Below are positions 5,590 to 63,120 of a DNA stretch of 64,000 bases, in pieces. Both the position numbers and the translations under genes were made by a program. Position 1 is the first letter of the stretch; every line of letters starts with the position of its first letter. The notes under the pieces are model-generated. The model had not been told where the DNA came from, did not search any database, and was given only the letters and a program-made list of their open reading frames with translations. The DNA comes from Strigamia acuminata (Eukaryota; Arthropoda; Chilopoda; Geophilomorpha; Linotaeniidae): NCBI GenBank assembly GCA_949358305.1, contig OX442322.1, positions 3,534,001 through 3,598,000 on the forward strand, given 5' to 3'.

Positions 5590-5676
5590 CGGGATAATTT
5601 TGTATCGGGAACGTTTGGCGGACGATTGAACGTGTGAGTTACGATTTTGTGCGGACGTCGGCGTGTTTGAACTTTT

Positions 5677-5688
5677 CCAAGATGGCGG
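5677..5688 (+). promoter_or_regulatory. YY1/Pho-like motif over the gypsy 1 start codon
   Basis: CCAAGATGGCGG overlaps the ATG at 5682. It fits the AAGATGGCGGC consensus known for YY1 and, in flies, the GCCAT core of Pho. It can also simply be a good translation-start context, so a regulatory role is inference. Confidence 0.4.
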
Positions 5689-10304: not shown

Positions 10305-10464
10305 TGTGACGGTGACGACCACAACTTCCTAGCTCGGCTAGTACCCGGTATAAGTCGCATAAACAGTGAATAATAACGAGATAAATACGAGACAAACATG
10401 GCTATCAAAACAACTACATTTATTGTTACCAAACAATATGATCGCTACTAAAGTTATACATGAG
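10305..10464 (-). repeat. W2 3' LTR, left fragment
   Basis: 160 bp nearly identical to 33116-33275. It stops abruptly within ACATGAG, where copia 1 coding sequence begins with GAGCGTTCAG. The equivalent of 33276-34087 (about 812 bp) is missing. Confidence 0.85.
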
Positions 10465-13400
10465 CGTTCAGTTTAATTTACTATTCAATAGAGGAGCAAT
10501 ATCACGAATTGCTCAGCGGAACTGAAGACGCCAAAGCAGCTTGGGACACTTTAAAGGCGAATTTTGAACCAGTCTCTCGAGCACGGATCATTCGACTACT
10601 AGACGAATTCTTCAGTGTCAAATATGATCCGACAACTGAAACAATTGGAGTTTTCGCAGCGAAAATACGCAATGCGGCGAAGAAGCTCGCCGATGTCAAA
10701 CACAAATTAGAAGATTTGTACCAGGCTTTCCAACTCATACGATACTTACCACAAGAGTACCAATCGATCGTCCAAAGTATCTACAGATGGGAAGATATCA
10801 ACTTCACTTTAGAGAAGGTCGAAGCAGAATTGGTCGCCGAAGAAGGGCAACTGGCACAGCAGCGAAGAGATTCAGGCCAGGGGCCGATCACAGACGCCTT
10901 CAGCATGGGACCAAGCTCAACCAACTCTAAAAGTGGCGACAACTCGTCAAAATTCCAACAACAGGGAACCAACAACCAGAATAATAGGGGAAATCAAAGC
11001 GGACAGAAGGAAGGACGATCGAATTATTGAGGAAACGAAAACGCGAGGAATTTTAGAGGGAATCCAACCGGATCATCAGGACGGGGGCCGTGTTTTCGGT
11101 GCAACCAACCAGGACACTGGGCCAGAGATTGCACGGTGCAGCTCCCGCCAAACAACAACTTAAACACAAGCAGTGTGGAAGAATTGGACGCCAATATGAT
11201 GGATGTTGGCTTTCTGACCGAATTGGACAAGGAGGAAATGTTACAGTGCAGCGCAGCCAACAATTGTTGGATATACGACACCGGAGCCACTGGACATTTC
11301 TGTAAGGAAAAGGAACAATTCTTCAACTTTAAACAAACTACGGGTACAATCAGCCAAGCAGACAAAAAGACATTAATTCAAATACAAGGAGTTGGTGATG
11401 TCTGCGTGATGTGTGTTGTGGGAAAGGAAACGATTCCGATAACCTTAAAAAAGGTTTATTACGCGCCGGATTTGAGACGAAACCTGATGTCGGGGCCGTG
11501 CATCGATGAAGCAAGGTGCAAGGTTGCAATAGGCTCTGGAATTGTCAAAATTTACGATCCGCAGTGGCGAAGACAACTAATGCAAGCAGAGAAAAGGGAT
11601 AGACTTTATTATATCAAGACAAGTGACCAGAAACCCGATATTGAGAAATTGAAACAGAAGCAAAACAGGAAAGCAAATGTTGGCAAACAGCAAACACAAC
11701 CGTCAACTGCACCAACTAAAACTACATCCAATCCAGAAGAAGCAAGGCTTTGGCACGAGCGATTAGGACACATTCACTTCCCTAGTGTACAAGCGATGAG
11801 CAAAGGGGATGCGGTAATTGGATTGCCCACTTTGAATGTGCCAATAACTCAATGCGACGTGTGCGACCTGGCCAAGAAGAAATTAGTTTCTCACAAGTCC
11901 ATTCCAGGAATAAGATCAAAGCAACCTCTGGAACTTTTGCATATGAATGTATGCGGAGCTTTTTCAACGGAAACGCTTTCAGGAAACAAGTATTTCCTTA
12001 CCATTACCGATGACTATTCGCGTTATTCATCAGTCTATCTAATGAAGAGGAAAGATGAAGTGTTCGACTTGTTTTGTAAACATGCGAAACGCATAGAGCG
12101 ACTGCTTGGGAAGCAGATTCTCGCAATTAGGACAGATAACGGAATGAAATTCTGTACTAACAAATTTGGACAGTATTTGGAACAACAAGGGATTGCCCAC
12201 GAGCGGACCAACGCGTATACACCCGCCCAGAACGACGTTTCTGAGAGATTAAACCAGACTTTGGCAAATGGGATGCGAGCCCTCATTTATGATGCGCAGT
12301 TGGAACACCGATTTTGGGGTGAAGCAATCCTCACTTTCAATTATCTTAGGAATAGAATCGCCAAACTGAACTCGAACAAGACACCCATGGAATTGTATTA
12401 TGGTCGAAAACCATCACTTCGACATTTGAGAAAATTTGGGAGTTTGTGCTTCGTACAGAAAAGGATTCGAGATGGCAAGATAGATAATAAGGAACTACAT
12501 AGAATCATGCTGGGATATTCAAGAATCACAAAAGGCTACCGAATTTGGCTACCAGACTTTGTAAAAGTCATCGAGACGAGTGATGTCAAATTCGTGGAAA
12601 GCAGGCGCGGAGTTGAAGGCGTGCTGGGCCTACCGGAAAAATATATCACTTATATTGACAATTTAAACGACAACCTAGAAAATGAGGATCGTCAATATTA
12701 TTCCAACGAAGATATCAGGCCACCACTACCGCCACCACAACCAATCAAGAAGAAAGAGCCTCAACAACAAGAACAGCCTGAAGTGAAGCTCAAATTTAGA
12801 TTGCCAAATGCAAAATTGCAAACAAGATTTCCTGAAATCAAACCTAACATACCAGGAGCTGAAACAAGAGTAGAGTTGCAAGACAACTTACCACAACCCG
12901 GCGGAGGTATTTTGAATCCAGTTCCAACTATACCTGCTCTAGTTTGGAGAAAAACCGAAAAGACGAGACCTACTGGACACAAAGACTATGAATATACGAT
13001 CGTGGGATACGATAAACCGAAGTTACGCTCAATACCAGACGTCAAACATTATTGTGCCGATCACAACCTTTGCCTTCCAGAACATCTCTTTGAAGACAAA
13101 AGAAAGAAGAAGCCTTCTGAGTCAAATGTAACGACGGATGATTTCGATTTGGACATTGATGAACTAACTCTCAGTTTTGAAGCAAATCATCTCGAAGTTT
13201 ACATTCCTACTCGCTTTGAACAAATAGCCAATTTACCGGAGAAAAAGGAATGGGATCAAGCGATGCATGATGAAATAAATACGATGCATGAACGTGAAGT
13301 GTGGGAATTGGTTCCACCACCATCCGACACCAAGATAATAGGATGCAAGTGGATCTACACAGTCAAACAGAACGACAAACAGGAGATTACACAATACAAA

Positions 13401-14777
13401 GCAAGACTTGTAGCACAAGGCTTTTCGCAAGTCTATGGCGAGTCGTACGAAGAAACTTTTTCACCTGTGGTCGACTTCTCCATTGTACGCTTCATGTTTA
13501 CGCTACTGGTATGCATGCTGAAATGGTCCTACGTCCAGGCTGATGTTAAATGCGCGTATCTTTACGCAAAGCTGCATAAGACTATATATATGCGCCAACC
13601 AAAGGGTTTTGGCTGCCCAGGCAAGGAGAACTACGTTTGCAGACTTCTGTGCGCAATATATGGACTACATCAATTGGGACGAGAATGGGGAATAGAATTA
13701 GAAGAAACCCTTTTAAAGCTTGGACTGCAACATGTCAACTGGTGCAATTGCGTCTACAAGTACGGAAATACTGCGTATTTAATCGTGTACGTCGATGACA
13801 TTGTTGTATTTGGCAAGAAATATGAAGACGCAATACACGTACTTGACATGATCAAAACACAGTTTGATTTGGTCATCCTAGGACAGACCAGAAAATTACT
13901 AGGAGTTGAATTCTACCCCTACGGACAACAGATGGTTTTACATCAAAAATCGTATGTCAACAAAGTCTTACTAAAATTCGAGGACCATCTGAAATTAGTG
14001 AAGATAAGGTCGCAGCCGATGATAAAGTCAACCATCCTCACAAAGCAACAATGTCCGAGTACGATTGAAGATTTTAAAGTCATGGAACGAATACCATACA
14101 GGAAACTGCTTGGATGTTTAGCATTTATTAGTTCGAGGACAAGACCCGATATCACCTATGCTGTCAATATCTTGAGTCAATTCCAGTCCAATCCAGGATG
14201 GGACCATTGGATCGCATTGCTGGATTTGCTCAGCTATCTGAGAACGACCAAGAATTTTGGACTAATGTTATTTCTGAATGATCGAGTCGAAGTCGTTGCC
14301 TACAGTGACTCCGACTATGCAAATAACCGGGACGACAGAATTTCCGTTGGAGGAACTCTGGTAACACTGGGAAGTTCACCCATTTACTGGAGAACCTTCA
14401 AACAACGAAACGTCACATTATCGACAATGGAAGCGGAGTATGTAGCCCTTACTGAAACTGTTAAGGACTACATATGGATTGTGCGAGTTCTTTATGAAAT
14501 TGTTCCCGAGTTGGCAGATGAATTTCATCACCACGTTTTGTGTGATAATATCTCGACGGTCGACTTTACGAAATCGAATGTGGAAAATCGAAAGACTAAA
14601 CACATAGATGTCCGGTACCACTTTATTCGGGAGCTTGTAAGGAGAGATAACCTTTAAATCACACATGTAGGGACAAAAAGTAACTATGCGGATATCTTTA
14701 CGAAATTCGTTGACAAAAACGATCTTGTACATTTTTGTAACCGTTTCCTAGTTGATTTAAGTATTTTAAGTGCTTGA
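10464..14777 (+). pseudogene. gag-pol: copia 1 Gag-Pol, truncated, two nonsense codons
   Basis: The frame runs from a partial gag (AFSLIYYSIEEQYHELL) to the pol end, in one phase. TGA at 11028-11030 falls where copia 2 has an arginine codon. TAA at 14655-14657 falls where copia 3 has glutamine; the normal stop is 14775-14777. Visible domains: zinc knuckle CFRCNQPGHWARDC near 11095, protease YDTGATGHF near 11275, integrase LWHERLGH, CDVC, DNGMKF, reverse transcriptase YVDDIVVFGK near 13790, RNase H STMEAEYVAL near 14430. In integrase the first D of the copia 2 motif HMDVCG reads HMNVCG, and NGVSERL reads NDVSERL. So beyond the stops a catalytic integrase residue is changed. Confidence 0.92.
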
Positions 14778-21969: not shown

Positions 21970-24900
21970 TCAAGCACTTATGAGGTTTAGATCAATCAGA
22001 AACCGATCACAAAAGCGCAGCAAATCAACTTTGTCAACAGACTTCGTAAAGATGTCCGCGTGGTTGTATTTGGTGCCCACATGCACGATATGGAGGTTAT
22101 CTCTTCTTACGAGCTCTCTTATGAAATGGTATCGCACGTCTATGTGTTTTGTCTTTCTATTTTTAACGCAGGATTTGGTGAAATCTACCGTTGAAATATT
22201 GTCGCATAGAACATGGTGAGGAAATTTGTCCTCCAAATCGGGGATGATTTCATGTAGAACCCGGACGATCCAGATGTAGTCCTTAACAGTTTCTGTAAGG
22301 GCCGCATATTCGGCCTCCATAGTTGATAATGTGACATTCCGTTGTTTGAAGGTCCTCCAATAAATGGGCGTAGTTCCCAAAGTCACAAAAGTTCCTCCAA
22401 CGGAGATCCGGTCGTCCCTGTTGTTAGCGTAATCGGAGTCGCTATATCCGATAACTTCAATCCGATCGTTTGGGAACAGCATTAATCCATGATTTTTCGT
22501 TGTTCTCAAATAGCTAAGCAGGTCTAGCAGCGCAATCCAGTGATCCCAGCCTGGGTTCGATTGGAATTGACTTAGGATGTTTACGGCGTACGTCAAATCG
22601 GGTCTCGTCCTCGACGCAATGAATGCCAAACATCTAAGTAGGCTTCGATAGGGAATTGCTTCCATGGTCTTAAACTCGTCAATCGTGGTTGGACACCCTT
22701 GCTTCGTGAGAATAGTAGCTTTAGTCATTGGTTGCGATCGAATTTTTACAGAGTCCAAATGGTTCTTAAATTTCAAAAGGACCTTGTTGATGTACGACTT
22801 TTGATGGAGAATCATTTGTTGCTTGTACGAATAAAATTCGACGCCTAACAACTTCTTTGTTTGTCCAAGTATGACTAAGTCAAACCGCGTTGCGATCATG
22901 TCGAGAACCTTCATCGCATCTTCATGATGTTTTCCAAAGACGACTATATCGTCCACGTAGACTATCAAATATGCAACGCTGCCATATTTGTAAACGCAAT
23001 TGCACCAGTTTACGTGCTCAAGTCCTAGTTTCAATAAAGCTTCCTCCAGTTCTATGCCCCATTCCCTCCCGGATTGGTGTAGTCCGTATATGGCTCGAAG
23101 GAGCTTGCAGACATAGTTTTCTTTGCCTTCAATGATGAAACCTTTTGGTTGTCGCATGTAGACGGTCTTATGCAACTTTGCGTAAAGGTACGCACACTTG
23201 ACGTCGGCTTGAATGTACGACCATTTGAGCATACAGACGAGCAGCGTGAACATGAAGCGCACGATCGAAAAGTCTACCACGGGTGAGAATGTCTCCTCAT
23301 ACGACTCGCCGTAGACTTGGGAGAAACCCTGCGCGACAAGTCTCGCCTTATAACGCGCAATCTTCCCCTTTTCGTTCTGTTTGGTCGTGTAAATCCATCT
23401 GCAACCCACTATCTTAGTGTTGGGCGGTGGTGGAACAAGTTCCCAAACTTCGCGCTCATGCATGGTGCCAATCTCGTCGTTCATCGCTTGGCGCCATTCA
23501 TTTCTTTCGGGTAAAGTCGCGATTTCCTCATAACGTACGGGTACGTGGACTTCTAGGTGATTAGCTTCGAAGTTGATATTTATATCATCAAAGTCCACGT
23601 CAAGATTATCCGCCGTCGTATTCGATTCAGAGGGCTTTTTCTTTCTTTTGTCGTCAAACAAATGTTCGGGAAGACGAAGGTTATGTTCAACACAGTAGCG
23701 TTTCACTTCCGGAATGGAACGCAATCTCGGTTTATCATATCCTTCGATTGTATATTCAATGTCTTTTTGACCCGTTGGTCTTGCCTTCTCGGTCTTTCTC
23801 CACACGAGAGCTGGTATGTTCGGAATTGAGTTTGGAAAAACCTGTCCAGGTTGTTGCAAAATGTTTGGTTGCTTCACTGCTGGCAAGTTGTGTCGCAACG
23901 CATCTTCTGGCTGTCTGAATTTCAGTCTAACTGGAGGTAATTCCTCTTCCTCTTTCTTCTTTATCGGTGCTGGCGGGGGTAGCGGTGGCCTCACATCCTC
24001 ATCGGAATAATATTGACAATCGTTGTTGTTATCCAAATTATCGTCCAAACTGTCGATATATGTCGTATATTTGTCCGGTAGGCCCAGCACGCCTTCAACT
24101 CCGCGCCTGCTTTCCACGAACTTGACATTGCTGGTTTCAATGACTTTAGAAAATTCCGGGAGCCAAACTCTATATCCTTTTGTGACCCTGGAATATCCGA
24201 GCATTATTCCGTGTATCCCTTTGTTGTCTATCTTGCCGTCTCGAACTTTCTTTTGAACAAAGCACAAACTTCCAAATTTTCTTAAATGGCGTAAGGATGG
24301 CTTACGACCATAGTAAAGTTCCATTGGTGTTTTATCTGACTTTAACTTGGCTATCCTGTTTCTCAGGTAATTGAAGGTTAAGATAGCTTCACCCCAGAAT
24401 CGATGTTCCAATCCCGCGTCGTATACAAGTGCTCGCATGCCATTCGCTAGTGTTTGGTTGAGTCTCTCCGAAACTCCATTCTGGGCAGGTGTATACGCGT
24501 TTGTGCGTTCGTGTGCGATCCCTTGTTTTTCCAAATATTGTCCAAATTTGTTGGAACAGAACTCCATTCCATTGTCTGTTCGGATCGCAAGAATTGACTT
24601 TCCCAACAGTCGCTCAATACGTTTCGCGTGTTTGCAGAACAAATCGAAAACTTCATCCTTGTGCTTCATTAAGTAGACGGTGGAGTAACGCGAAAAATCA
24701 TCCGTTATCGTCAGAAAATACCTATTTCCCGACAGAGTTGCTGTGTTGAATGCTCCACATACGTCCATGTGTAAGAGCTCCAGTGGCTGTTTCGACCTGA
24801 TCCCAGGTATAGACTTGTGTGAAACAGATTTCTTCTTTGCTAAATCGCAAACGTCACATTGTGTGATGGGCACATCCAAGATAGGAAGTCCAACGACTGC

Positions 24901-26414
24901 ATCGCCTTTACTCATTTCCTGTAAGCTTGGAAAGTAAATGTGCCCCAGTCGCTCATGCCAAAGTCTTGCTGCTTCTGGATTTGACATCTTCTTGGTTGAG
25001 GTAATTGATCCTTGTTGCTTTTCTTCACCAACATTAACTTTGTTGCTCTCCTTCTGTCTTAACTTGTCAAAGTCGGGTTTTTGATCACTTAATCTGATGT
25101 AGTAGAGTCTGTCCTTCTTTACTCCCTCCATCAATTGCCTCTTCCACTGTGGATCATAAATTTTGACAAGTCCAGAACCCACGGCGAATTTGCATCTGGC
25201 TTCGTCGATGCACGGCCCCGATAACAAATTCCGTCTTAAATCTGGCGCGTAGTAAAGTTTCTTTAATGTGATTGGAATTGTCTCACTTCCGACCAAACAC
25301 ATTATGCAAACATCTACGCCCTGGATCTGAATTAGTGTCTTTTTATCGGCTTGACTTATTGTTCCACTTGTCTCTTTGAAATTGAAGAATTGGTTTCTGT
25401 CCTTACAGAAATGTCCTGTGGCCCCGGTGTCATAAATCCAATAGTTGTTGGCTGTGCTGCATTGCAGCATCTCCTCTTGACTTAATTCCGTGAGGAAACC
25501 GACATCTAGCATGTTATTGTCCAATTCTTCCGCGGTATTTGTGTTCAACTGGTTGTTCGAATTATTTGGTGCGAGTTGCACTATACAATCCCTCGCCCAA
25601 TGTCCTTGTTTGTTGCAGCGAAAACACGGCCCCCGTCCTGGTGATCCGGTTGTATTTCCTCTGAAATTCCTCGTGTTTTTGCCGCCGCGGTAATTTGATC
25701 TTCCGCCCTTTTGTCCGCCTTGATATCCTCCTCGACTATTTTGGCCAGTATTGCCTTGTTGCTGTGAATTATCGCTGGTTTTGGTGTTCGTGGCGCTCGT
25801 GCCCATGCTAAAAGCATCCACTATTGGTCCCTGACCCGAATCCCTTCGTTGTTGGGCCAAACGTCCCTCTTCTGCGACCAATTCGACTTCCACCTTTTCC
25901 AAAGTAAAATTCGCGTCCTCCCACCGATAAATCGCCTGGACAATCGATTGATATTCTGCTGGCAGATACCGAATTAACTGAAAAGCTTGGTATAAGTCCT
26001 CCAATTTGTGTTTAACGTCGGCGAGCTTCTTCGCCGCGTTTCGAATCTTTGCTGCGAAGACTCCGATTGTTTCCGTCGCTGGGTCGTATTTCAGACTGAA
26101 AAATTCGTCCAACAAACGAATTATCCGCGCTCTTGAGACTGGTTCGAAGTTTGCTTTCAATGTGTTCCAAGCCTTCTTGGCGTCGTCGACCCCGCTGAGC
26201 AATTCGTGATACTGCTCCTCTATCGAATAATAAATCAAGCTGAAAGCTCTTCCTTGTCGTAGCTTGAAGTCCGAGCGGTCGCGCCAAGATGCTCCAGGTG
26301 CCAAAGCCTCCTCCGTCCCTTCCGCAAACGCCCAGCATCCGTGATCTGTTTCCAGCTGTCATAGTTGGTCCTGTTCAGCAGTGTAACCTTTCTTTCTGGT
26401 TTGTCCGTATCCAT
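21970..26414 (-). pseudogene. gag-pol: copia 2 Gag-Pol polyprotein, one N-terminal frameshift
   Basis: A frame of 1444 codons runs from 26304 to 21970. A better start is ATG at 26412-26414, whose first ~25 codons (MDTDKPERKV, NYDSWK) are typical of a copia gag but lie in another phase. A 1-nt indel near 26325-26345 therefore seems to break gag. Domains by residue from 26304: zinc knuckle CFRCNKQGHWARDC near 228; protease YDTGATGHF near 290; integrase LWHERLGH near 450 and CDVC; catalytic D of HMDVCG near 513, D of RTDNGMEF and E of NGVSERLN near 606; reverse transcriptase YVDDIVVFGK near 1115; RNase H YSDSDYANN and STMEAEYAAL near 1300-1330. All catalytic residues I checked are present. It is the best-preserved member of the copia 1/2/3 family here. 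Confidence 0.93.
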
Positions 26415-44749: not shown

Positions 44750-47700
44750 TCAACAGCCATCACGGTATCTCAACGGCTTGACTGGTATTCGTTTTCCCAA
44801 AACTGGGCGCCGCGGAGAAATCCTTTTGAGCTTCTTCCGCGCGCGTTTGATTTTAATTTTAATGACTGGAGCGGGCGGAGCTACAGGTGCAGGTGACGGC
44901 GGGTCTGCCGCTGCAGGTTCAGTGACCGCAACAGGTGGGACCGCTTCCACCGCATCCTCAGCTACCGGCCAGGTGGGTGTGGTCTCGGGCGGAATATACC
45001 GCTTCAAGTTAACAATATTTATCGGACCTTTGCATTTCAGCGTAACAGGTGTCGCCACCGTATACACTAATGGACTGACGACCTTCGTAATTACATACGG
45101 GCCTTCGAATCGGTCCTCCAGCGATGCGGAATAACGGAGCGCCTTGTTTGACAGCGGGTGAGTACGTAGCAATACCAGGTCATCCACGTCGAAACTATCG
45201 TCGCTCCGATGTCGATCATAATAAGACTTCTGTTTCTGTTTAGCCAGCAACTTGTTTTTGAGCGCCGCCTTCAATAAAACGTCCATCCTGGCTACCAACA
45301 TTCTCACAGTGTCGTACGGCTGCTCGGGATCGAAGGGCGCATCGAGTGCCACACCACGACCATCCCAAAACGGACGCAATTCACGGAGATATGCCAGCAT
45401 CGCCGGTGACAATCCAGTCGTTGCAGAGGGGGCCGTGCCCAAAGCGAAATTAATTCCGTTAATGCATCGGTCCCACTGATCATGTTCGGACGTGAAAATC
45501 TGGAGCATAATTTTGATGTTCCGATTGACTTGTTCAGTGTAATTAGTTTGCGGGTGATATGGTGACGTCCTCAACGGAGTGACACCTGCCTCCCTGCACA
45601 ACTCATTGTATACTTCTGAAATAAATTGTTTACCATTATCGCTCACAATAAAGCGAGGGCACCCATGATTGTGAAAAAATGTCATCAATACCGGCACGAC
45701 GCTTGAAATCTTCGCCGTTCTTAATCGTGTCGCCTCAACCCATCCTGTGGCGTAGTCTACAATCACCAGAATATACCTGTTCCTATTTTTCGTCATAGGT
45801 TTCGGACCCATGAAATCGATACCAATTCTTTCGAATCGTCCCACCAGTGGTGAAACTGGCATCAAGAGTCCGCCAGGTTTCCTCTGCACAGGTTTACAGC
45901 GCTGGCAACGGTCACACCTTGCGATGTATTCCTTCATACTGCGTCTAAAACCAGGCCAGAAAAAACTACGACGCAACCTGTCAGTTGTGACATCGACACC
46001 ACCATGTCCAGACAACGGGTGATCGTGCACAACCTCAAGACAGCGGTCGTATAACGAAGCAGGCACCACAATTTTTAAACCAGAGCCATATTCCGTGTTC
46101 TCCAAAAACATGTCGGCCTTCAACGGAACATTTACATACAACACTCCGTTTGAAGCTAACATAAAATCAGTTTTATACTGTAACATCAGCGGAGAGAGCT
46201 GGGAAAGTTGGGCATCGTCCTCTTTCTCTGCTTCTAACCACTTAATGATTATTGCACAATCGGCATCAGCCAACTGACCCGCCCGAATCTTGTCCAGTGA
46301 TAGGGTGAGGTCAATCGACTCAGCGGCCGAAAGTGTGTGTGAAAACATGGTCGCGCCCACTTCCTCGGGTCGGGTTTCTGATGTCGTTAAGTCGTCATCT
46401 AGACCCACTCGAGAACGTGCGTCTGCCACCTTGTCGTCTATACCTTTCCTATATTTTATAATGAAATTTTCTTGCTGGAATTTCATAGCCCATTGAGCCA
46501 AACGACCGGACGGACTCTCACACGACATAAGCCATTTAAGAGCCATATGATCAGTTTCGACTACGAACTCTGAATACTCAACATACGGTTTGAACTTATT
46601 TACGGCCCAAACCACTTCTAGACATTCGAGCTCTGAAGCGCTGTAGTTAGCCTCTGCACCTTGGAGAGTGCGACTAGCATAAGCAACAGGTCTCACCTTC
46701 TCTTCGTCATCGGCTTGCATGAGGACTGCACCGAGACCGCCCGCACTAGCATCGGTGTGAATGATGAAAAGGCGGGCAAAATCAGGCAAAGGTAGCACGA
46801 TCCCATTAGCCAGCTGATCCTTTAGAGTCGTGAAAGCATCCTGGCACTCGCTCGACCAACTCCATGCGACATCCTTTTTGAGGAGCAGGAAAAATGGTTT
46901 CGAGGTGATGTTCAGATTTTTCAGTAATGGCGCGTAGAATCCAACCATACCGATAAAACGCTGCAACTGCTTTACGTTTTTCGGGGGCGGATACTCCACG
47001 ATCGCTTGCACCTTGCTTCCGTTTGGACTGTACCCCACAGGCGTCATAGTGAAGCCTAGGAAATCCCAGTTAGCAGGGCAAACAAACGATTTAGATGGGC
47101 TAGCCGTCAGGTTTACCTTCTCCAATCGGGCCAGCACATCCGCCAGATGTATCAAGTGTTCATCAAATGACTTGCTGTAGATGACAATGTCATCCAGAAA
47201 AGCCAGAGCCCACTTGAACTTCGCTTCTCCCAAAACCTCGTCCATCATGCGTTGAAACGCACTGGGTGCATTACACAACCCGAACGGCATTCTAGTGAAC
47301 TGAAACGTGCCCTCAGGGGTAGCAAAAGCCGTTTTGCACTTGTCGCTGGGCTTTAACTTGATTTGATAATAGCTTTTTGTCAAGTCTAGTGTCGTAAAAT
47401 AAACACTCCCCCCCAGACACGCCAAAATCATAGAGATTGACGGCATTTGATAGACGTCTTTCTCCGTGAGTTTGTTTAACTGCCTGAAATCGATACAATC
47501 AAGGGCGGATTCTTGTAACTGCTTTCGCATTTCTCAACCTCGCCCTTACTAAGTGAGTCCTCCACCAGTTGGCGAAAAATTTCAGCTTTAGCCGGTTTAA
47601 TTGGTTGATCTCTGCATTTGAACGGCAGGCTGTCACCGGTGGGGAACTTGTGTTCTGCATCCGGGTGGCATCCTGGCGTGTCGCTAAAGGTACGGCTGTA

Positions 47701-48420
47701 TTCGTTAATTAAATACGACAGCCTCACTTTTTGCGTTTCTGTTAATTCACATTTCGACATTAAACGTTCCGTAAGCGTGGGTTCAGCAGGGTCACCAGCG
47801 TTTCGAACGGATGTGGCGAGTTCCCACTGATCCACGACCGGGACCGCCAAGTCTACTCTGTATGGTTGGGGGTCAAAAGGAAATGTCTCCTCCGGATTAT
47901 CAAGGTGAAACCAATCATTCCGGGGTAATCTAATCACGATGTTGTTCCCTTTAATCCAGTTGCACCCGAGAAGGATGAAACACGAACTAGAGGGTAACAC
48001 CGGGAAACGGATCTTTTGACTCCCAGTTCTCCAGCACATGAGCAATTCAAGTATTCCTACAGGACTTGTAACTCTGTCACCCGTCATAACCCTAATAGGA
48101 TTCCTACAGGGTTCAAGCAGGTGCATGAGACCAAACCTGTCGGCCATAGCGCTACTGATATAAGGACCAGTTGCGCCGCAGTCAACCAAGGCTTTCGTCT
48201 CATGGCTATTAATGGTCACGTTAATGTAAGGTAGAGGGCAATTCCAATCCCGAACAGCAACGTGTACCGTATCAAACACCTCAACCTCGGGGACGCCCGA
48301 GAAGGGGTGCGGTTCTGACGGTGAGTAATCTGCAAAGATTTCATCATCCAGATCAGTTTTAGTTGGTGCTAAGACGGAAGCAATCTGATCGCAGGCCTCG
48401 GACGAATCTAATCCTCCGCA
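44750..48420 (-). pseudogene. pol: gypsy B Pol: protease-RT-RNase H-integrase with one break
   Basis: The first part (to 47476) is open from about 48420, in the -1 phase relative to gag. It holds protease ALVDCGATGPYIS, with DCG where D(S/T)G is usual, and leads to CESSYKNPPLI. The RT then continues in another frame from about 47512 (CIDFRQLNKLTEKDVYQMP). About 10-15 residues seem lost at this break. Further motifs: LDLTKSYYQI, LAFLDDIVIYSK near 47190, RNase H HTDASAGGLGAVL near 46755, integrase H-x3-H and CDRCQRC near 45950-45900, D of IDFMGP, D of VSDNGKQF, E of NYTEQVNR, then LEDRFEGPYVI. The C-terminus is proline/alanine-rich and then basic. Confidence 0.9.
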
Positions 48421-48554
48421 GCCTGCTCCAGCTCGTTTTCCGACTCAGCTTTCTCTTCAGACAAGCTCTTCGTGAAAAACACTGCTTTCGCTAGTTCCTC
48501 AGTCAGATGGGCCACGCGCTCCGCAGCCTTACCAGCGAGTTTGTGCTTGATTGT

Positions 48555-49484
48555 TCATTGCCGCTCAAAATGCGGTCCGCCACAATGCCAACAACCTGCG
48601 CCGGGAGGTGCAATAGCGTGATCTTTTAGGAGATTAGACGGGGGGCGGCCTGTAGCAGTCTTCGGGGTGTCTGCTGGCTTCCCACTAGGGGTCGCTGCAG
48701 GTTTACCCGTTGGCGGCTTCAGCCAGCTCTGCGTTCTATCTCCGCTTTTTAGGTCTGCATACTTTGACTGTGTCGAGGTCTGCGGCGCATGCCAGTGCGG
48801 GATAATCACACTGCCTGGGTCACGGAACCTCTCCATCGCCAAAGCTGCCGGGGCGAAACGTGCGCAAGAGCGTTTGAGACCTAGCCAGGAGTGATCCCAG
48901 GCCAAAGTGTTTGCCGCCATACTGCACGTCTCCTTCGTCATTGCCGCAAGGGCATAATTGATCTTATACTCATCGGCAATCGGCACTTGCATCTGGTTGA
49001 ACAACGCGTCCAGGTCCGTCCAGATTTGCAGCGCCGTCACGTCTTTCGCCTGCTTGATAGAAACTGCCTTCGCGAGCAGCTGGCTGTTTGACGGTGCAAA
49101 ACGGGTCTGGAAAGCGACCTCGAATTCGTCCCACGTTTTCACCGGCATCGTCGACTGCCACCATGACAGCGCATCGCCTGAAAAGAAACGTGACAAGAAC
49201 CTTCGGGCCACATAATCAAGCTGCAACTCGGCAAAGGACAGATTTGATCGTAACTGGATCAGAAAAGCCCTCGCCGCGGTGCGATCGCCCGAAAATGGGT
49301 CCATCCGGATCTGTGACACATGCTTAGTCAGCTGCTCCACGTCCGGCAAGCCCTTCGACTTTGGGATAGTGGACTGCGTTATCAATCTATCAGTAGGCAC
49401 ATCGACCCCGAGATGCATCGAGACGTCCGCGGCAAGGGGTGGAGTTGTCCACCTCCTCACCTTTTGGCCGGGCATCGCTTGCAT
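48555..49484 (-). pseudogene. gag: gypsy B Gag, stop codon in the zinc knuckle
   Basis: About 309 codons. The central part is a retrotransposon Gag domain (MDPFSGDRTAARAFLIQL, GDALSWWQS, FEVAFQTRFAPS). The end is CWHCGGPHFERQ followed by TGA at 48555-48557, exactly where the last Cys of the knuckle should be. The same frame stays open for about 45 more codons (AGKAAERVAHLTEELAKAV) to TAG near 48416. So this is either a TGC/TGT to TGA mutation or an unusual natural stop. The 5' end of the element is cut by Z at 49516. Confidence 0.8.
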
Positions 49485-49515
49485 CGATCGCGGATCGACA
49501 GGTTGGGGATCGGTT

Positions 49516-49834
49516 TGTTAAGATATGGCGTATATTAATAAGCAATTACTATTTACCACATGTACATATGTATATCTTTTCGTATTATCATGTAACCCGG
49601 TGTTAATGCATGTATTTGGCCAATGCGAGTAATCGCAGTGTTTGTTTACATACAGTGTTTGTATGCTGCCTACAGGTGGCTCTTATTGCAAAGAGGTCAT
49701 GTGACCAATCAATAAAACTCACTTGATGTTTTGTTACTCACCTGTAAAGATGGACTCCAATTCTTTATCCACCTGATGTTTTTCTAAACCACTGTTTTTA
49801 CAAGTCACTACAAACTCTATATGATTATTCAACA
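49516..49834 (+). repeat. Z 5' LTR (319 bp)
   Basis: Starts TGTTAAGATATGG and ends ATTCAACA. It carries the shared copia LTR block: CTACAGGTGGC (49671), GTCATGTGAC, AATAAAACTCAC, GATGTT. Confidence 0.82.
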
Positions 49835-54140: not shown

Positions 54141-54632
54141 TGTTGGAATTTGGAGCAGTCATATGGTGCCAGCTTGTTATTGTCGCATGTTTCTGGACAT
54201 AGTGCGACAACGGCGCATTGCATTACCATTGTATTCTTGTCACGATGTCGAGCGCCAATTGTTATTAACTGGTATTGCGCGTGTTACGGTGCTACGGTTG
54301 GCGCATGCTTTGCAATGGTTAACGTTTGTGTCGTCTGCTCAGATGAGCTCTTATCGTTTAGTTTGCCCCAGCAGCTTATCCATTGTTAAGGCTGGTTTTA
54401 TGTTGATTATTTACTTTGTTTTGTAAAGAACAAATCAACCATCACTATGAATTGATTTGTTCTCATCTTTTATGTTTTGTAGACTTGAGAAGAACAAATC
54501 TCAAGTCATGACACTTGCTTTCTGTTTTCTGACAAATAAAGATGTCAGCCACCACTGGCTTAGAGTGGTGGTTTTAGCAATTCTGACTTTTTGGCTTCTC
54601 ACATGCACTCACCACGGTTTGGACACTGATAA
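54141..54632 (+). repeat. copia 4 5' LTR (end placed by primer site)
   Basis: Starts TGTTGGAATTTGG. AATAAA is at about 54535, followed by a GCCACCACTGG...AGTGGTGG hairpin. The exact end is uncertain: a CA lies at 54624-54625 (TTGGACA), 7 nt before the primer-like sequence. Confidence 0.65.
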
Positions 54633-54650
54633 TGATAGCAGAGGATGGTT
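54633..54650 (+). other. copia 4 primer binding site, initiator-Met type
   Basis: TGATAGCAGAGGATGGTT differs at one position from TGGTAGCAGAGGATGGTT, the complement of the initiator tRNA-Met 3' end. The exact form occurs in Y at 62225. Repeated at 59995-60012. Confidence 0.65.
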
Positions 54651-56247
54651 TTGGTGAGTGCTACGTTAATTTAACGCTCGGAATCGAATTCGCGACGAAA
54701 TTCTGGCCGGGAACGTCTTGTACGCGTCGACGGGAATTGCCGGAGCGGCAGGCAGCACAAGAGCGACGACTTTTCCGACCGGACGAGCGAGTTTCGCGTG
54801 CTTCGTAAAGCAGCGAAGTCGGCGAATTGCGACCCGAAGCAGTGAGAAGCGATTGTCAACGAATTTGGCGGCGAAACAGCTTGGAATCATCGTGGGATTA
54901 GTTTCCTGGACTGCAGGAACATTAGAAAGTATTTATCGAATTTATTTGGTGAAAATAACACCGTTTTTTCGTTGTTTCAAATCCACGATGACGCGATATT
55001 CCAAGATGGCGGCCCCCAGTGTGGTTTGTGAAGACGCCCGAGTTTAGGTGGTTTTCGAGTCGTGCAGCGGATTACAACGTTGGATTTGCCACGCTAGTGG
55101 TGTAACAAGACACGACGAATCGTTTAAGAGTAGTTTCGGAAGGATTTGAGGACAATTTTCGGTCGAAAACGGAATTTTCGGGACGGCGACGATCGCGAAC
55201 ATATTTCGCAACGTTTTGGCGACGTCTCGAAGCACAGCGCACGTTTTGAATACGTGCCCACCGAAGCTGGCAACGTTTTGGAAACGTATTTTGGTGGATT
55301 TCGGTGGATTTATGTCAGTTTTTCGTTCCCGGGACACGACACACGAGCGAAGACACTTCGGCGTCACATTCGACGATAAAGCGTCGAATATCAACGGATT
55401 TCAGCTGGAAATTACGTGGATTAGTGCCTGGAAATCAGGAAGAATTGCTAGAGACAGTAGGAACTCGAAATATAATTTATTTGTTGTATTTTTGCCGATT
55501 TTTTACCATGACGTGCGGTGCAGCCGAATCCAAGATGGCGCCGTCCATGCCAGTCTGGTGAAAACGAACGAGGATCGTTCACAGCTCGTCGTACGATTAT
55601 CCCAGCGTGGAATTACGTCGTGTAGACGTTCTACGAGTGTGCAACTGACGTTTCAGCGACGTTACGGAATTTTTCTAGGACATTTCGAAGTATTTGGAGC
55701 ATTTCTCGTTCGCGACGAGCGAAACGAGTGACGAATCGAGTTTAGCAGATCACGGATCAGCCCGGGACGGGTATCTGTGCTACGGTGGACAGGTTAAGTC
55801 TTGTGCCAGGTGCACAAGTGAATTGCAACGATTCGGATCGACGTTCTACGGCGTCTACGTGGGATTTTGCGACGCAAAAATCCCGCAAATCAGACAACTT
55901 GCTAACAAGTGTATTTTATTGTTTATTTGGGGTTGTCGTGAAACTTTGTATAGGTTTAAGGTTTTGTTTTGGGGTCCCTTTGTTTGTTTTCTGCCCTTTA
56001 CTCAGTCGAGTAGCAGAATCCTATTTTCACACAGGCTATTTCTGGCCACCAAGTGTCCCGCGGGCCCAGGTGCACCGGTCGGAACTTGGGAAATACTGTG
56101 TGGAGTTTTGCATCTCACTTAGTGAGATTTGTCCAAGGGAAATTTGTGATTTTTCTCCTTAATTTTGGTTGGGGAAAATCGGTGTTTTTGTGTTTTCAAA
56201 GTGGAAAAGTGTTTTTATTTGCGAAAGTGCTGCAAATAATTGAAGAA
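54651..56247 (+). other. copia 4 leader
   Basis: About 1.6 kb before the ORF. It has YY1-like CCAAGATGGCGGC at 55001-55013 and CCAAGATGGCGCC at 55530-55542. A hairpin, GGGATTTT-GCG...CGC-AAAAATCCC, is at 55861-55884. Open frames such as 55216-55731 are present but have no recognisable domain and I do not call them. Confidence 0.55.
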
Positions 56248-59200
56248 ATGTGTTTTGTGCCATCACTAAATTTGTTAGTGAGTATGCTGTGGCTTGGTAG
56301 TGCAAATTTCGTGCAACAAGCGTTTTGTGCAATAAGAAGGTCTTTAACAGACAATGTGAGTGCCTGCAACAAGCAGACAATGGATGACACACACAAGGCA
56401 CAATTGGAGATGAAAACACACGAACAGAAGGTCTTTAACGGACAGGCAGTGTATAACACACTTAATGAACAATTGAAAAGGAAAATTAGTGTTCTTGGAA
56501 AAGAAAAATTTGATTTGTGTTTTGATTTTGACAAAAGTGTATTGTTATTAACCCATTTAGTTTGTAAGAGCGCATTAACAGAAAACATTGATGTTATGGC
56601 AGGGGCCATTAGTGATCTAGTTTTGACACTTTGTGCAATGCATATGCATGTGAGGGAAGCAAATGGGGTTAGCAGTAACAAAGTGCAGGGCACTGGTGAT
56701 GGTAATCAGAACAGCAACATGGTTGATTCAAATATGATTTTGAATGCCATGAATGATGTGCAAAACATCAAATCCCAACATGGATACGGGGATTTAGAAT
56801 ATTTGAACAAGGTTCAAATTAGAAAAGGAAATAAAGAATTGAATTTCACCACAATTAAAGGTGGTAACCCCCTTAATTCTGTTAAAATAAAGAAAGAAAC
56901 TAGGCCTAAATTGACAGAAATGGAACATTTGAACCAGGTTCGGAATAAAAGGAACGAGGGGAACAAAGTTAATCAAATTAACATTCAAGGTTCTTGTAGA
57001 CAGAATCGACAAAGGGTTTTTGTAAAAACCGGGAAAAAGAATCCTCCTCCTTTAGAACAGAATAGGGAATTGAACAAATTGGATTGTGCAACCACAATTA
57101 AAAGTGGTGACTCCCTTAATGGCAATAGTCGGAACAATAGAAATGCAAATAGATTTGCAAAAATGGAATTTTCGAACCGGATTCGAAATAGAAAGAGAGA
57201 GGGGGACCCGAATAGAATTGGTTCTTTGAAGGACATTCCAGGGAAGTCTAAAAGGGGTTTGAATAACCAAAAGTCAAGTATGACAACAGGAATTAGACAG
57301 AGTGATCCCTTAAATTCCGGTATTAAAAACCAGAAAAAGAATTCTAGGAATGGAAAGTTTAACAAAGACAGGGTTCTTCCAATCTCATTGTGGCATACCC
57401 GGATGGGGTATTTAAGTGAAGAAAGTATTTACGCTATGAATGGATCACAAGATGCTTTTGGTGTCCGATTAGAAGACACGGGGTCCACCCCTATAACGGG
57501 GGACTTTGAAAAGGCAAATATTTACCCAACACAAAGAGATAATGACAGGACAGCTTTAGAAGCTGTACATTTGAGTGTTTGGAGGGCCCCAACTAGGGAT
57601 AAATATATCATTATAATAGATGATTGTTCTAAATTCACATGGTTTAAACCATTAAAGGGAAACAGCATTTTAATAGAATTCCAGAATTGGTTAAATGAAA
57701 TTAAATGCTTGAGAGGAACTGTAAATGGAGTTTATTTGGGCCCTGGGATGGATTTTTCCCCAAAAGAATTAACAGCATGGGTAGAAACAATGAGAAATTT
57801 TGGGATTACAATTGACAGTGTACATTCTGAGAACCCAATGGCTGACTCCATCTCCAAGAGGGCCAACACAAATATTGTAAACAGAGTGGAAGATTTGATT
57901 GTAGAAAATAAATTTCCAGGTTATTTGTGGTTGGAGCTAGCCAACACAATAATATATTTAAGGAATAGAGCCCCCAGAATTAATTTGAACTGGAAATCCC
58001 CGTACAATGTGTTGTATGACCGGTGTGTATCGGTACGACATCTCAGATGCGTGGGGTCTAGAGTTAAAGTTGCCCACATTAATGATGGGAAAAGATATTT
58101 CTGGATGGGTGCTCTGATCGGGTATTCTAATTCACGAAGGAAATACCGGGTCTGGGACCCAGTAAAAAACAGAATTTTCCAAGTTTCTCGAAACAATATG
58201 AAGTTTTGTGAGTGGACTTATTGGCACGAGGGGGAAGTTAAACCCTCTCTGGAATTCTCCAATAAAGATGAAACTTTAGATAATATGGGAAATGTAGGAA
58301 TTGAAATTCCATCGAAGGTTGTTGGAGTGCCAATATCCCCTCAGCTGGAAGTGCTTTCCCCATTGGAAATGGAGTTTGAAATTCCCCCATTGTTGACTTA
58401 TGAAGAAGTTGGCATCAATGAGCGTATGTTTACTGGAAATGAGGGGGAAAATTTGGGGATGGTTGAATCAAATCAATGTGATCCACAGGTCGATTTTAGC
58501 AATGGAGGACAGAATGAGGAAATTAATTCGACATTGCAAATTCCCCCATTGTCGCTGAGTGAAGAAGTGGACTTTAATAAGTGTGGAAGTATTGCAAACG
58601 AGGGGGAACACTTAGAAACACTTGCCACAAGTGATGAAGAGATTTATGAGGAACTCACTTGCGAACAGGAATCTTCCTCTTTAGTGTACACAGTGGAAGA
58701 TGATATTTCCCCATCATCAGGCGAGGGTAAAATGATTGAGACAGAGGGAAAGTTTGAAAGAAAATTTAGTGATAAAGGAATTGATTTGCTAATGGGAATT
58801 CCTCCAGTGTTAGCACATGAGGAGATTGGCGTGAATGATTCCGAGATTATTGCAAACGAAAGAGAAGGATTGAAACAGTCTATATTGGATTTTGAGCCCA
58901 AATCTGATGAAGGGTTTAGACAGGCCGATTCCATGAAAGTTTGTGAGATTTGTTCGACGTCACTGGAAGATGACATTTCCCCAACACCGTTAGAGACACT
59001 GATAGATGTGGGTGAACATAAAGTCATTAGGACAGAGGGGGAATGTAGAAAGACCAAAAGACGTAAGAAAAGATGTAAGAAAAACAAAAATGTAGCTTTA
59101 ATAAAAACAAATGACATTGAATGTGAATTGATGGCTGGTGAGCCGGATTGTATTAGTTATGTCCTGACCGAAGTGGATGTGAAATTTGAAGAGCTAAGCG

Positions 59201-59274
59201 AACAGGATAAACAAACTATAATAGATGAGTTAGGATTCACATGGGATGAAAACTACATTTACCCCAAATATTAG
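56248..59274 (+). CDS. copia 4 protein: integrase-like domain without catalytic residues, no RT
   Basis: An intact frame of about 1008 codons from ATG 56248 (the frame is open further upstream with only non-ATG starts). Order: hydrophobic start; helical region; a basic region with recurring units (EYLNKVQIRK, EHLNQVRNKR, EFSNRIRNRK; TTIKGGNPLN, TTIKSGDSLN). Then LWHTRMGYLSEESI, a relic of the pre-integrase LWHxRLGH motif with the second His lost and no CxxC. Then an integrase-like core: HLSVW for HMDVCG (Ser at 57574), YLGPGMDF for RTDNGMEF (Gly at 57739), DSISKRANT for NGVSERLNQ (Lys at 57856). The integrase C-terminal part (YLRNRAP, RHLRCVGSR, GYSNSRRKYRVW) is kept. The last 350 residues are acidic repeats and a basic patch in place of RT and RNase H. 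The protein cannot catalyse integration; DNA/RNA binding or a structural role is possible. Confidence 0.85.
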   Translation: MCFVPSLNLLVSMLWLGSANFVQQAFCAIRRSLTDNVSACNKQTMDDTHKAQLEMKTHEQKVFNGQAVYNTLNEQLKRKISVLGKEKFDLCFDFDKSVLLLTHLVCKSALTENIDVMAGAISDLVLTLCAMHMHVREANGVSSNKVQGTGDGNQNSNMVDSNMILNAMNDVQNIKSQHGYGDLEYLNKVQIRKGNKELNFTTIKGGNPLNSVKIKKETRPKLTEMEHLNQVRNKRNEGNKVNQINIQGSCRQNRQRVFVKTGKKNPPPLEQNRELNKLDCATTIKSGDSLNGNSRNNRNANRFAKMEFSNRIRNRKREGDPNRIGSLKDIPGKSKRGLNNQKSSMTTGIRQSDPLNSGIKNQKKNSRNGKFNKDRVLPISLWHTRMGYLSEESIYAMNGSQDAFGVRLEDTGSTPITGDFEKANIYPTQRDNDRTALEAVHLSVWRAPTRDKYIIIIDDCSKFTWFKPLKGNSILIEFQNWLNEIKCLRGTVNGVYLGPGMDFSPKELTAWVETMRNFGITIDSVHSENPMADSISKRANTNIVNRVEDLIVENKFPGYLWLELANTIIYLRNRAPRINLNWKSPYNVLYDRCVSVRHLRCVGSRVKVAHINDGKRYFWMGALIGYSNSRRKYRVWDPVKNRIFQVSRNNMKFCEWTYWHEGEVKPSLEFSNKDETLDNMGNVGIEIPSKVVGVPISPQLEVLSPLEMEFEIPPLLTYEEVGINERMFTGNEGENLGMVESNQCDPQVDFSNGGQNEEINSTLQIPPLSLSEEVDFNKCGSIANEGEHLETLATSDEEIYEELTCEQESSSLVYTVEDDISPSSGEGKMIETEGKFERKFSDKGIDLLMGIPPVLAHEEIGVNDSEIIANEREGLKQSILDFEPKSDEGFRQADSMKVCEICSTSLEDDISPTPLETLIDVGEHKVIRTEGECRKTKRRKKRCKKNKNVALIKTNDIECELMAGEPDCISYVLTEVDVKFEELSEQDKQTIIDELGFTWDENYIYPKY

Positions 59275-59502
59275 AGGGGGAATGATGAAGATTGCATGTT
59301 AATCTAATTGGAGTCTTTGATCTCAGGCGTGTCATGGGCAAAAATAGTGTTACCGGTTTGCTTTTATGTCACAACCCTAGGTAATTATATATTCGGGGCG
59401 CATTCGGAGTAATGTCGCAGTGTCGGGGTTGTTTCAAGTTGTCAGGGTAGTGTCACATTGTTTTTGTCCCAGTGGGGCCCCATATGCTGCTCAGAGGGGG
59501 TA
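59275..59502 (+). other. copia 4 3' untranslated region and polypurine tract
   Basis: 216 nt of untranslated sequence and then AGAGGGGGTA (59493-59502) immediately before the second LTR copy. The ORF stop is itself followed by AGAGGGGGAATG. Confidence 0.75.
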
Positions 59503-59994
59503 TGTTGGAATTTGGAGCAGTCATATGGTGCCAGCTTGTTATTGTCGCATGTTTCTGGACATAGTGCGACAACGGCGCATTGCATTACCATTGTATTCTT
59601 GTCACGATGTCGAGCGCCAATTGTTATTAACTGGTATTGCGCGTGTTACGGTGCTACGGTTGGCGCATGCTTTGCAATGGTTAACGTTTGTGTCGTCTGC
59701 TCAGATGAGCTCTTATCGTTTAGTTTGCCCCAGCAGCTTATCCATTGTTAAGGCTGGTTTTATGTTGATTATTTACTTTGTTTTGTAAAGAACAAATCAA
59801 CCATCACTATGAATTGATTTGTTCTCATCTTTTATGTTTTGTAGACTTGAGAAGAACAAATCTCAAGTCATGACACTTGCTTTCTGTTTTCTGACAAATA
59901 AAGATGTCAGCCACCACTGGCTTAGAGTGGTGGTTTTAGCAATTCTGACTTTTTGGCTTCTCACATGCACTCACCACGGTTTGGACACTGATAA
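59503..59994 (+). repeat. copia 4 second LTR
   Basis: Copy of 54141-54632. It serves as 3' LTR of the first unit and 5' LTR of the partial second unit. Confidence 0.75.
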
Positions 59995-61230
59995 TGATAG
60001 CAGAGGATGGTTTTGGTGAGTGCTACGTTAATTTAACGCTCGGAATCGAATTCGCGACGAAATTCTGGCCGGGAACGTCTTGTACGCGTCGACGGGAATT
60101 GCCGGAGCGGCGGGCAGCACAAGAGCGACGACTTTTCCGACCGGACGAGCGAGTTTCGCGTGCTTCGTAAAGCAGCGAAGTCGGCGAATTGCGACCCGAA
60201 GCAGTGAGAAGCGATTGTCAACGAATTTGGCGGCGAAACAGCTTGGAATCATCGTGGGATTAGTTTCCTGGACTGCAGGAACATTAGAAAGTATTTATCG
60301 AATTTATTTGGTGAAAATAACACCGTTTTTTCGTTGTTTCAAATCCACGATGACGCGATATTCCAAGATGGCGGCCCCCAGTGTGGTTTGTGAAGACGCC
60401 CGAGTTTAGGTGGTTTTCGAGTCGTGCAGCGGATTACAACGTTGGATTTGCCACGCTAGTGGTGTAACAAGACACGACGAATCGTTTAAGAGTAGTTTCG
60501 GAAGGATTTGAGGACAATTTTCGGTCGAAAACGGAATTTTCGGGACGGCGACGATCGCGAACATATTTCGCAACGTTTTGGCGACGTCTCGAAGCACAGC
60601 GCACGTTTTGAATACGTGCCCACCGAAGCTGGCAACGTTTTGGAAACGTATTTTGGTGGATTTCGGTGGATTTATGTCAGTTTTTCGTTCCCGGGACACG
60701 ACACACGAGCGAAGACACTTCGGCGTCACATTCGACGATAAAGCGTCGAATATCAACGGATTTCAGCTGGAAATTACGTGGATTAGTGCCTGGAAATCAG
60801 GAAGAATTGCTAGAGACAGTAGGAACTCGAAATATAATTTATTTGTTGTATTTTTGCCGATTTTTTACCATGACGTGCGGTGCAGCCGAATCCAAGATGG
60901 CGCCGTCCATGCCAGTCTGGTGAAAACGAACGAGGATCGTTCACAGCTCGTCGTACGATTATCCCAGCGTGGAATTACGTCGTGTAGACGTTCTACGAGT
61001 GTGCAACTGACGTTTCAGCGACGTTACGGAATTTTTCTAGGACATTTCGAAGTATTTGGAGCATTTCTCGTTCGCGACGAGCGAAACGAGTGACGAATCG
61101 AGTTTAGCAGATCACGGATCAGCCCGGGACGGGTATCTGTGCTACGGTGGACAGGTTAAGTCTTGTGCCAGGTGCACAAGTGAATTGCAACGATTCGGAT
61201 CGACGTTCTAACGGCGTCTACGTGGGATTT
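59995..61230 (+). repeat. copia 4 second leader, truncated
   Basis: Copy of 54633-55870 including primer site and both YY1-like motifs (60363, 60892). It ends at ACGTGGGATTT, where X integrase sequence begins. The sequence after the left copy (TGCGACGCAAAA) is not found here. Confidence 0.8.
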
Positions 61231-62242: not shown

Positions 62243-63120
62243 GCTGCCTAATATAACATTCTTTTCGTTAATTTTCGACGTATTCGTCGCGAAATTCGCG
62301 ACTTGTGCGCCGAAACTTGTTTATTTGCAGGTACGACGATCCTCGCCTCGCCAGTTTCGTTTCTTGAACGTCAGCGACGTTACCACGACGTTTTGGATAG
62401 CCAGGGCTGTCCATTTCACCGCCATTCGTTTAATTTTGTCCGGAATTTTGCGGGTCTCGCAGATTTCGAGACAAAATCTTATTTATTTTCAGATTTTTCA
62501 CCAAACTGGATTTTCGACACTGCTTAGCACGAAGCGGCAGTTACAACGAGAACCGAGCACTCGTTGTTCGCGGCTTAGTTCCCCGGAGAACGGTCGTTAG
62601 CGTCGATCTTTTCAAGATTTTTCAGAAAAGCCTCGAATTTTTCGAGAAGAATCCGAATTTCGAATTCGGATTGCGTTTTCTAGCAGCTTTTCGAGAAAGC
62701 TGTCTTGTGCCTTCATTTGCACGAGCTTGCAACCGCAAGAGATTCACCTATTTCTCCTTCTTGTCGCATATATCATTGTTAGCATTTAAGGGGGATTTTG
62801 GAGTGGGTTTATTAGAATCCTTGGTGCCCTACGCTCGAGTCCGGGCAAGCACCATTGTATTCTGTAACAAGGCTGAGCCCTGCCTCACCTAGTGTTTCCG
62901 CGACCCCAGGTGGTCACAAAGGGCACTAGGGGGATACTTGTTACAGGTTGTCAGCCGATCTTAGAATTGGCTCCCAATTTGAAGGTTTCCGCCTCGAAAG
63001 TGATTGTGAAAGTGCTCCGAAACCGAGTGCGTCGTTTGTGCAGTGCCATTCAACAGTGCTTCACGTACCATTCCTTAAGTCAGTGTGTTCTTCGCGACGT
63101 GTCCAGTTTTCGACGTCATC
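62243..63120 (+). other. Y leader
   Basis: About 880 nt before gag. Open frames overlap it but no protein features are seen; called non-coding. Confidence 0.55.

Follow-up and report, generated by a model that had tools for sequence, protein, structure and literature searches.

The element analysed here lies on the forward strand (+) of a window of 64,000 nucleotides, the whole stretch of DNA that was analysed, and all its features are given on that strand in window coordinates. Its open reading frame begins at the ATG at 56248 and runs for 1008 codons (56248..59274), or 1086 codons from stop to stop, and it is as intact as the preliminary description had it. Upstream of the frame, a 5´ LTR of 491 bp (TGTTGG...CTGATA, 54141..54631), whose extent is taken from the LTR pairs of other copies, is followed by a primer-binding-like site, TAGCAGAGGATGGTTT (54636..54651), which we take to be a match to the 3´ end of initiator tRNA-Met. 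This site recurs 3´ of the LTR in other copies of the family and in L049, a complete copia elsewhere in the genome. The leader (54632..56247) fills the space between the 5´ LTR and the ORF, while a polypurine tract, AGAGGGGG (59493..59500), and a 491-bp 3´ LTR (59503..59993), delimited by comparison with other copies, lie beyond the ORF. The 3´ LTR is followed by a second, truncated copy of the leader, a tandem remnant (59994..61228) that repeats 54632-55865.

This arrangement changes the reading of the two terminal segments, which had been described as nearly identical 1.7-kb LTRs. The near-identity stands: the only differences found are a 1-base indel at 55847/61210 and a substitution at 54750/60112, and both fall outside the 491-bp LTR. 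An LTR of 1.7 kb is ruled out by comparison with the LTR pairs of other copies: the remainder of each segment is leader, present again after the 3´ LTR.

The encoded protein is built of parts with contrasting charge. The start of the ORF (56248-56331) is hydrophobic and ends in a signal-peptide-like FCA, and the first residues, MCFVPS, are kept in all seven other intact ORFs examined. A basic linker comprises residues 141-376 (56668..57375), with a net charge of +28 by charge count. It precedes the pseudo-integrase region, residues 377-666 (57376..58245), which includes a retroviral SH3-like domain (PF25597, 58018..58215, Pfam E 1.3e-6) that is also present in all 15 dead-integrase rows scanned. 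An acidic tail, residues 667-930 (58246..59037), carries a net charge of -44, and the C-terminal part, residues 931-1008 (59038..59271), is distinguished by a lower dN/dS than the tail. Across copies, the net charge ranges from +8 to +28 in the linker and from -20 to -44 in the tail. In the Pfam scan of the window ORF, which admitted E values of up to 1, the SH3-like domain was the only match, rve and RVT both being absent; neither a gag nor a zinc knuckle domain was matched in the window type. No RVT match (reverse transcriptase/RNase H) was found in the window ORF, L010, L012 or L052, which bears out the claim that reverse transcriptase is absent.

The preliminary description held that all three catalytic residues of the integrase had been replaced and that the HHCC zinc site was lost. 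The integrase region was examined at 38 places (the window, L009 to L028 and L029 to L045). Of these, L022 and L024 were set aside because of stops, and L013, L014, L015 and L026 because they duplicate other copies, which left 32 distinct copies; L001 to L008, overlapping other loci, were excluded from the counts. The first catalytic Asp (57574..57576) is Ser in 32 of the 32 distinct copies. The second (57739..57741) is Gly in 30, or 30 of the 31 with a residue there, the others having Ser (one) and a gap (one). The Gly codon is GGC in 19 copies, GGT in six and GGA in five, so that the residue is held while its codon varies. The third position (57856..57858) is Lys in five copies, including that of the window, but Glu in 25 and Asp in two. 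The replacement of both aspartates is thus upheld, whereas the exchange of Glu for Lys belongs to a minority, and triple catalytic loss is ruled out as a family trait because Glu is usually kept. The zinc site is only partly lost: the first Cys is present in 0/32 copies and the second in 9/32, the second His is replaced by Tyr in 26/32, and the first His is kept in 26/32. Asp occurs at the first or second catalytic position in none of the 32 copies, and an intact D-D-E is thus absent from all copies scored. L046, L047 and L048, copia relatives from this genome, retain D, D and E.

The loss of the aspartates is accompanied by conservation of the surrounding region. Its median dN/dS is 0.24 by the Nei-Gojobori method, over 490 pairs with dS over 0.05 that are not independent and were computed as if the copies had never recombined. 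The quartiles among distinct copies are 0.22 and 0.28 and the range is 0.14 to 0.47, at a median dS of 0.95. Compared part by part in eight copies, dN/dS is 0.52 for the first 140 residues, 0.77 for the linker, 0.25 for the integrase-like part and 0.63 for the tail; the C-terminal part gives 0.37 (11 pairs). The integrase-like part is the portion of the ORF most kept by selection. For the whole ORF the ratio is 0.48 in frame, versus 0.81 and 0.90 in the other frames. A ratio near 1, which would have pointed to decay, is therefore not what the copies display.

The predicted structure of the pseudo-integrase region (AlphaFold2, pLDDT 80) matches solved integrases in the PDB, and a model built from dead-integrase rows only, with a lower pLDDT of 57.5, is still predicted to match integrases; the integrase core fold recognised by eye is thus also found by prediction. 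In protein databases, a single-sequence search returned seven copia-domain proteins with identities of 21 to 27%. When a profile built from 15 dead-integrase regions was run against 5.8 billion proteins, none of 2069 candidates was a hit at E 1e-5; that search depends on shared 5-residue words, so that absence elsewhere does not follow.

In the genome, the family is numerous: at least 98 rows were found at 44% identity or more and at least 37 at 36 to 38%, these being lower bounds, with 135 of 2460 candidates scored. The catalytic residues were read at 38 places of the former group. The rows at 36 to 38% include open frames of up to 1582 codons, and broken dead-integrase copies also exist. On the mitochondrial contig of this genome (L054, C157), COX1 is nearest to that of the geophilomorph centipede Mecistocephalus marmoratus (85%), with horseshoe crabs next (83%), which makes the host an arthropod and probably a centipede. 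In a tree of 45 rows, from which P0002 and P0007 were omitted for having no start motif, the 32 dead-integrase rows form one clade (100/100, stem length 1.08). This clade is nested in a 38-row clade (100/100) with L046 to L051, to which two other copias from the window do not belong. The grouping with copia integrases indicates that the dead integrase is of Ty1/copia descent.

The relatives within this clade differ in domain content. L049 (2852-7597) is a complete copia of 1582 codons with gag, knuckle, beta-barrel domain, integrase core, methyl-CpG-binding domain (MBD) and RT. Its MBD (PF01429, E 1.5e-10) lies between integrase and reverse transcriptase, and an MBD is also found in L050 and L051. 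No copia polyprotein with such a domain came up in the literature searches. L051 (2983-6162) combines an intact D-D-E integrase, a knuckle, the MBD and near-identical LTR stretches with no RT match in Pfam, and by its domain content it would be a second kind of non-autonomous copia. L052, from the 47% group, has a zinc knuckle, a beta-barrel domain and the dead integrase, again with no RT match; its beta-barrel lacks the D-T-G-A letters found there in L049. Since L052 retains knuckle and beta-barrel while the window type is without gag and knuckle, a stepwise loss of domains toward the window type is suggested. In L012 an MBD relative survives below the Pfam cut-off; in a single comparison it gives E 3e-17, with 39% over 66 residues.

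Recent movement had been deduced from the window copy, and here the claim must be moved to other copies, which display it better. No target-site duplication was seen around the window copy. Its left flank matches the copia L053 over 441 bp at 93%, whereas the right flank, beyond a break at 61228, has no match to L053 except 14 bases. The window copy is therefore not a simple young insertion, and insertion into one host copia is ruled out by the mismatched flanks. Elsewhere, dead-integrase matches in the genome search recur at 5.69-kb spacing (four matches, C7:352820-370753), and intact-copia RT matches lie about 6.26 kb apart (C4:2572521/2578786, C5:2333357/2339621, C12:415679/421942). Because of this regular spacing in both kinds of element, it is suggested that tandem arrays form, as if sharing LTRs, and that the window copy may be the remnant of one.

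Clean insertions are seen at other loci. Fourteen LTR pairs were compared, 13 from dead-integrase copies and that of L049 as a D-D-E-intact control, with no clean pair at seven further loci (among L009, L011, L020, L022, L024, L026, L027 and L028). A perfect 5-bp target-site duplication flanks 12 of the 13 dead-integrase copies; at the thirteenth, L014, the duplication test failed because the repeat is cut short. The two LTRs are identical in 11 of the 13 and differ by one mismatch in each of the other two, the pairs of L012 and L014 being compared over 212 and 471 bp. The integrase regions of L013 to L016 are identical at four places. From the duplications and the identical LTR pairs, it follows that these elements are recent insertions made by an integrase encoded elsewhere. 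They are non-autonomous LTR retrotransposons that have moved recently without encoding the enzymes needed.

The distribution of reverse transcriptase agrees with this dependence. The end part of the leader (55700-56247) gave 40 genome matches, 34 of them with a dead integrase 1.35-2.06 kb downstream and six with no dead-integrase match within 3 kb downstream. Judged against 63 of the 151 RT matches listed, none of the 40 leaders of this family has an RT match within 6 kb downstream, versus 29 of 40 elements with the L049-type RNA; as the RT searches were limited in rows, an RT-bearing member of the family may have escaped them. Candidate autonomous partners, as the preliminary description had anticipated, were found through the primer site, the LTR 5´ ends and a structured RNA. 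Dead-integrase copies and L049 have in common the primer site, the 5´ end of the LTR and the style of polypurine tract. The LTR 3´ ends vary among dead-integrase copies (CAACA, CAATA, CTATA, TGATA) and L049 has TATCA, so the match to a candidate helper at the LTR ends is imperfect.

The structured RNA is a stretch of 147 nt with three predicted hairpins near the end of the leader (55983..56129), common to D-D-E-intact copias, and scores 168.6 bits with a covariance model that includes this window sequence itself. The reading frame of the ORF is open upstream of the ATG (56014-56247), where it overlaps the RNA, and likewise in some other copies. In an alignment of 16 sequences (13 dead-integrase, three D-D-E-intact), 32 of 47 predicted pairs show compensatory change and 95.5% of cells pair, compared with 31 to 50% for slid partners; with the 13 dead-integrase rows by themselves, 28 of the 47 pairs are compensated and 96.4% of cells pair. 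Because these sequences also served to derive the structure, such counts favour it. Among 500 shuffles, none attains the observed pairing percentage, compensated-pair number or covariation score, although 76 attain its number of further pair types. Rfam gave no match at the gathering threshold over the window, nor at E up to 1 for 55900-56250.

With E values of up to 10 admitted, the covariance model has 32 matches, spread over 26 sources. Within the window, one further match and no third was found: an RNA of the same type, outside the element, in a neighbouring copia's leader (62816..62972, 49.7 bits, E 3.1e-10), whose sequence was kept out of the model. Matches without a dead integrase are followed, as judged by eye, by a gag-like ORF in seven cases (L049, both in L050, L012:1521, L019:6995, L028:7263 and L024:7924), and the gag after that of L051 is shortened. 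In the stretch read, L023:770, L016:9452 and window 62816 have no ORF of 120 codons after them.

Two types of leader can be distinguished when seven outside elements are compared. The RNAs of the window, L010, L013, L017, L019, L023 and L025 are nearest that of L049 (74 to 85%), and those of L012, L021 and L052 are nearest that of the gag-encoding copia L019:6995 (86, 85 and 92%); the RNA of L021 is slightly nearer to that of L023:770 (86%), where no ORF was seen. L012 and L017 are 91% identical in integrase nucleotides and 57% in RNA, while L012 and L040, the integrase piece of the L052 locus, are 63% identical in integrase nucleotides and 88% in RNA. Since RNA likeness cuts across the integrase tree, the leader has been swapped between elements. 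Such exchange may represent helper switching. According to PMC5454406, the Ty1 leader is required for helper-mediated movement of mini-Ty1, and by analogy the leader RNA may be a recognition or packaging signal for helper Gag.

Taken together, selection at a dN/dS of 0.24, the absence of D-D in all 32 copies and the predicted integrase fold support the earlier proposal of a lineage in which the pseudo-integrase is kept for another job. These elements probably form a long-lived non-autonomous, or satellite, lineage of Ty1/copia that persists beside the MBD-bearing copias. A non-catalytic structural role, in RNA binding or subunit mixing, fits best, since the core and SH3-like domain are kept, a basic linker and an acidic tail are present, and the metal-binding aspartates are gone. 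As a tentative and fuller proposal, this RT-less copia satellite, gag-less in the window type, would live by an exchangeable helper-specific RNA and a dead-integrase structural subunit, an RNA swap being a helper switch. Helper proteins would take up and copy the satellite RNA, the structured leader would be recognised and packaged by helper Gag, and dead-integrase elements would have changed helper by swapping leaders. The protein's part in this is put forward less firmly, as a possibility: it could serve as a structural subunit without catalytic activity, attaching to its own RNA through the basic linker and SH3-like domain and mixing with helper integrase by virtue of the kept fold. It may thereby bring satellite RNA or cDNA into the helper particle or intasome, with catalysis performed by helper subunits. 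The weak constraint on the ORF outside the integrase-like region (0.52 to 0.77; 0.37 at the C-terminus) counts against the satellite reading, and selection on the protein of a trans-mobilised element needs cis preference or shared benefit.

An unlikely alternative is interference, in which helper copias would be held in check by a dead integrase that poisons mixed intasomes. A kept fold with a lost metal site does resemble a dominant-negative subunit, but the satellite has inserted recently through the same kind of integrase activity, and its own movement would suffer. It is likewise improbable that the protein acts as a targeting or chromatin adapter leading the helper complex to chosen chromatin; the MBD of L049, L050 and L051 and its relative in L012 hint at methylated DNA, yet among three whole-scanned dead-integrase members and the window an MBD-like stretch occurs only in L012. 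Passive hitch-hiking, in which nothing would count beyond the LTR, primer site, tract and leader RNA and the ORF would be open through youth, would suit the many identical LTR pairs, the weak constraint on most of the ORF and the broken copies. We give it little credence in view of the low dN/dS among distinct copies at a median dS of 0.95, the lower whole-ORF ratio in frame than in the other frames, the invariant Ser and the Gly kept despite synonymous drift. Host domestication is very hard to credit, as the copies, though under purifying selection for a dead integrase, are many (at least 98 rows with an identity of 44% or above) and belong to LTR elements whose LTRs are identical and which are flanked by target-site duplications.

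Returning to the proposed satellite, non-autonomous LTR elements are usually thought to retain cis signals only, or Gag. The classes TRIM, LARD, TR-GAG and BARE2 are mobilised in trans by relatives and retain Gag, a defective polyprotein or no coding sequence at all; none of them is known to carry a dead integrase under selection. GIN genes are domesticated integrase genes of hosts. Autonomous Ty1/copia elements (L049, yeast Ty1) resemble the present family in descent, tRNA-iMet-type primer site, 5-bp target-site duplication, integrase and SH3-like fold and structured 5´ leader RNA, whereas the window type is without RT, gag domain and catalytic aspartates. The wheat RLG_Cereba and RLG_Quinta, in the excerpts of PMC11302176, are an autonomous/non-autonomous LTR pair with LTR ends and primer site in common and an intact ORF in the non-autonomous partner. 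RLG_Quinta differs in belonging to the Gypsy group and in encoding GAG and a domain of unknown function, with no dead integrase, and those excerpts describe no structured, exchanged leader RNA. HIV-1 integrase, which according to PMC7671690 binds RNA in particle maturation apart from catalysis, offers a precedent for a non-catalytic role, although there one protein does both jobs and here the catalytic job is apparently gone. Domesticated integrases (GIN; Imagin, PMC12863088) are also integrase-derived proteins; they are host genes, unlike the protein carried here by mobile LTR elements. Literature searches on RT-less, integrase-only, dead-integrase, helper-pair and centipede copia elements brought up nothing recognisable as this lineage. 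A dead integrase under selection suggests that a retrotransposon integrase has a job separable from catalysis, and the covarying leader RNA, with its two swapped types, makes helper-satellite matching directly testable.

Directly 3´ of the primer site, the motif GTGAGT (window 54652-54658) is a possible splice donor. Among 14 dead-integrase copies it stands at this place in 12 (the window, L012 to L019, L021, L025 and L052) and is absent from L010 and L023, and it is also absent from L049; a candidate acceptor lies inside the conserved hairpin, and a spliced leader is therefore not claimed. The window is nearly all retroelement, as judged by eye from motifs, and other gypsy/copia elements with long open frames were recognised by eye at 5598-9788, 10464-14657, 21970-26358 and 44750-49517.
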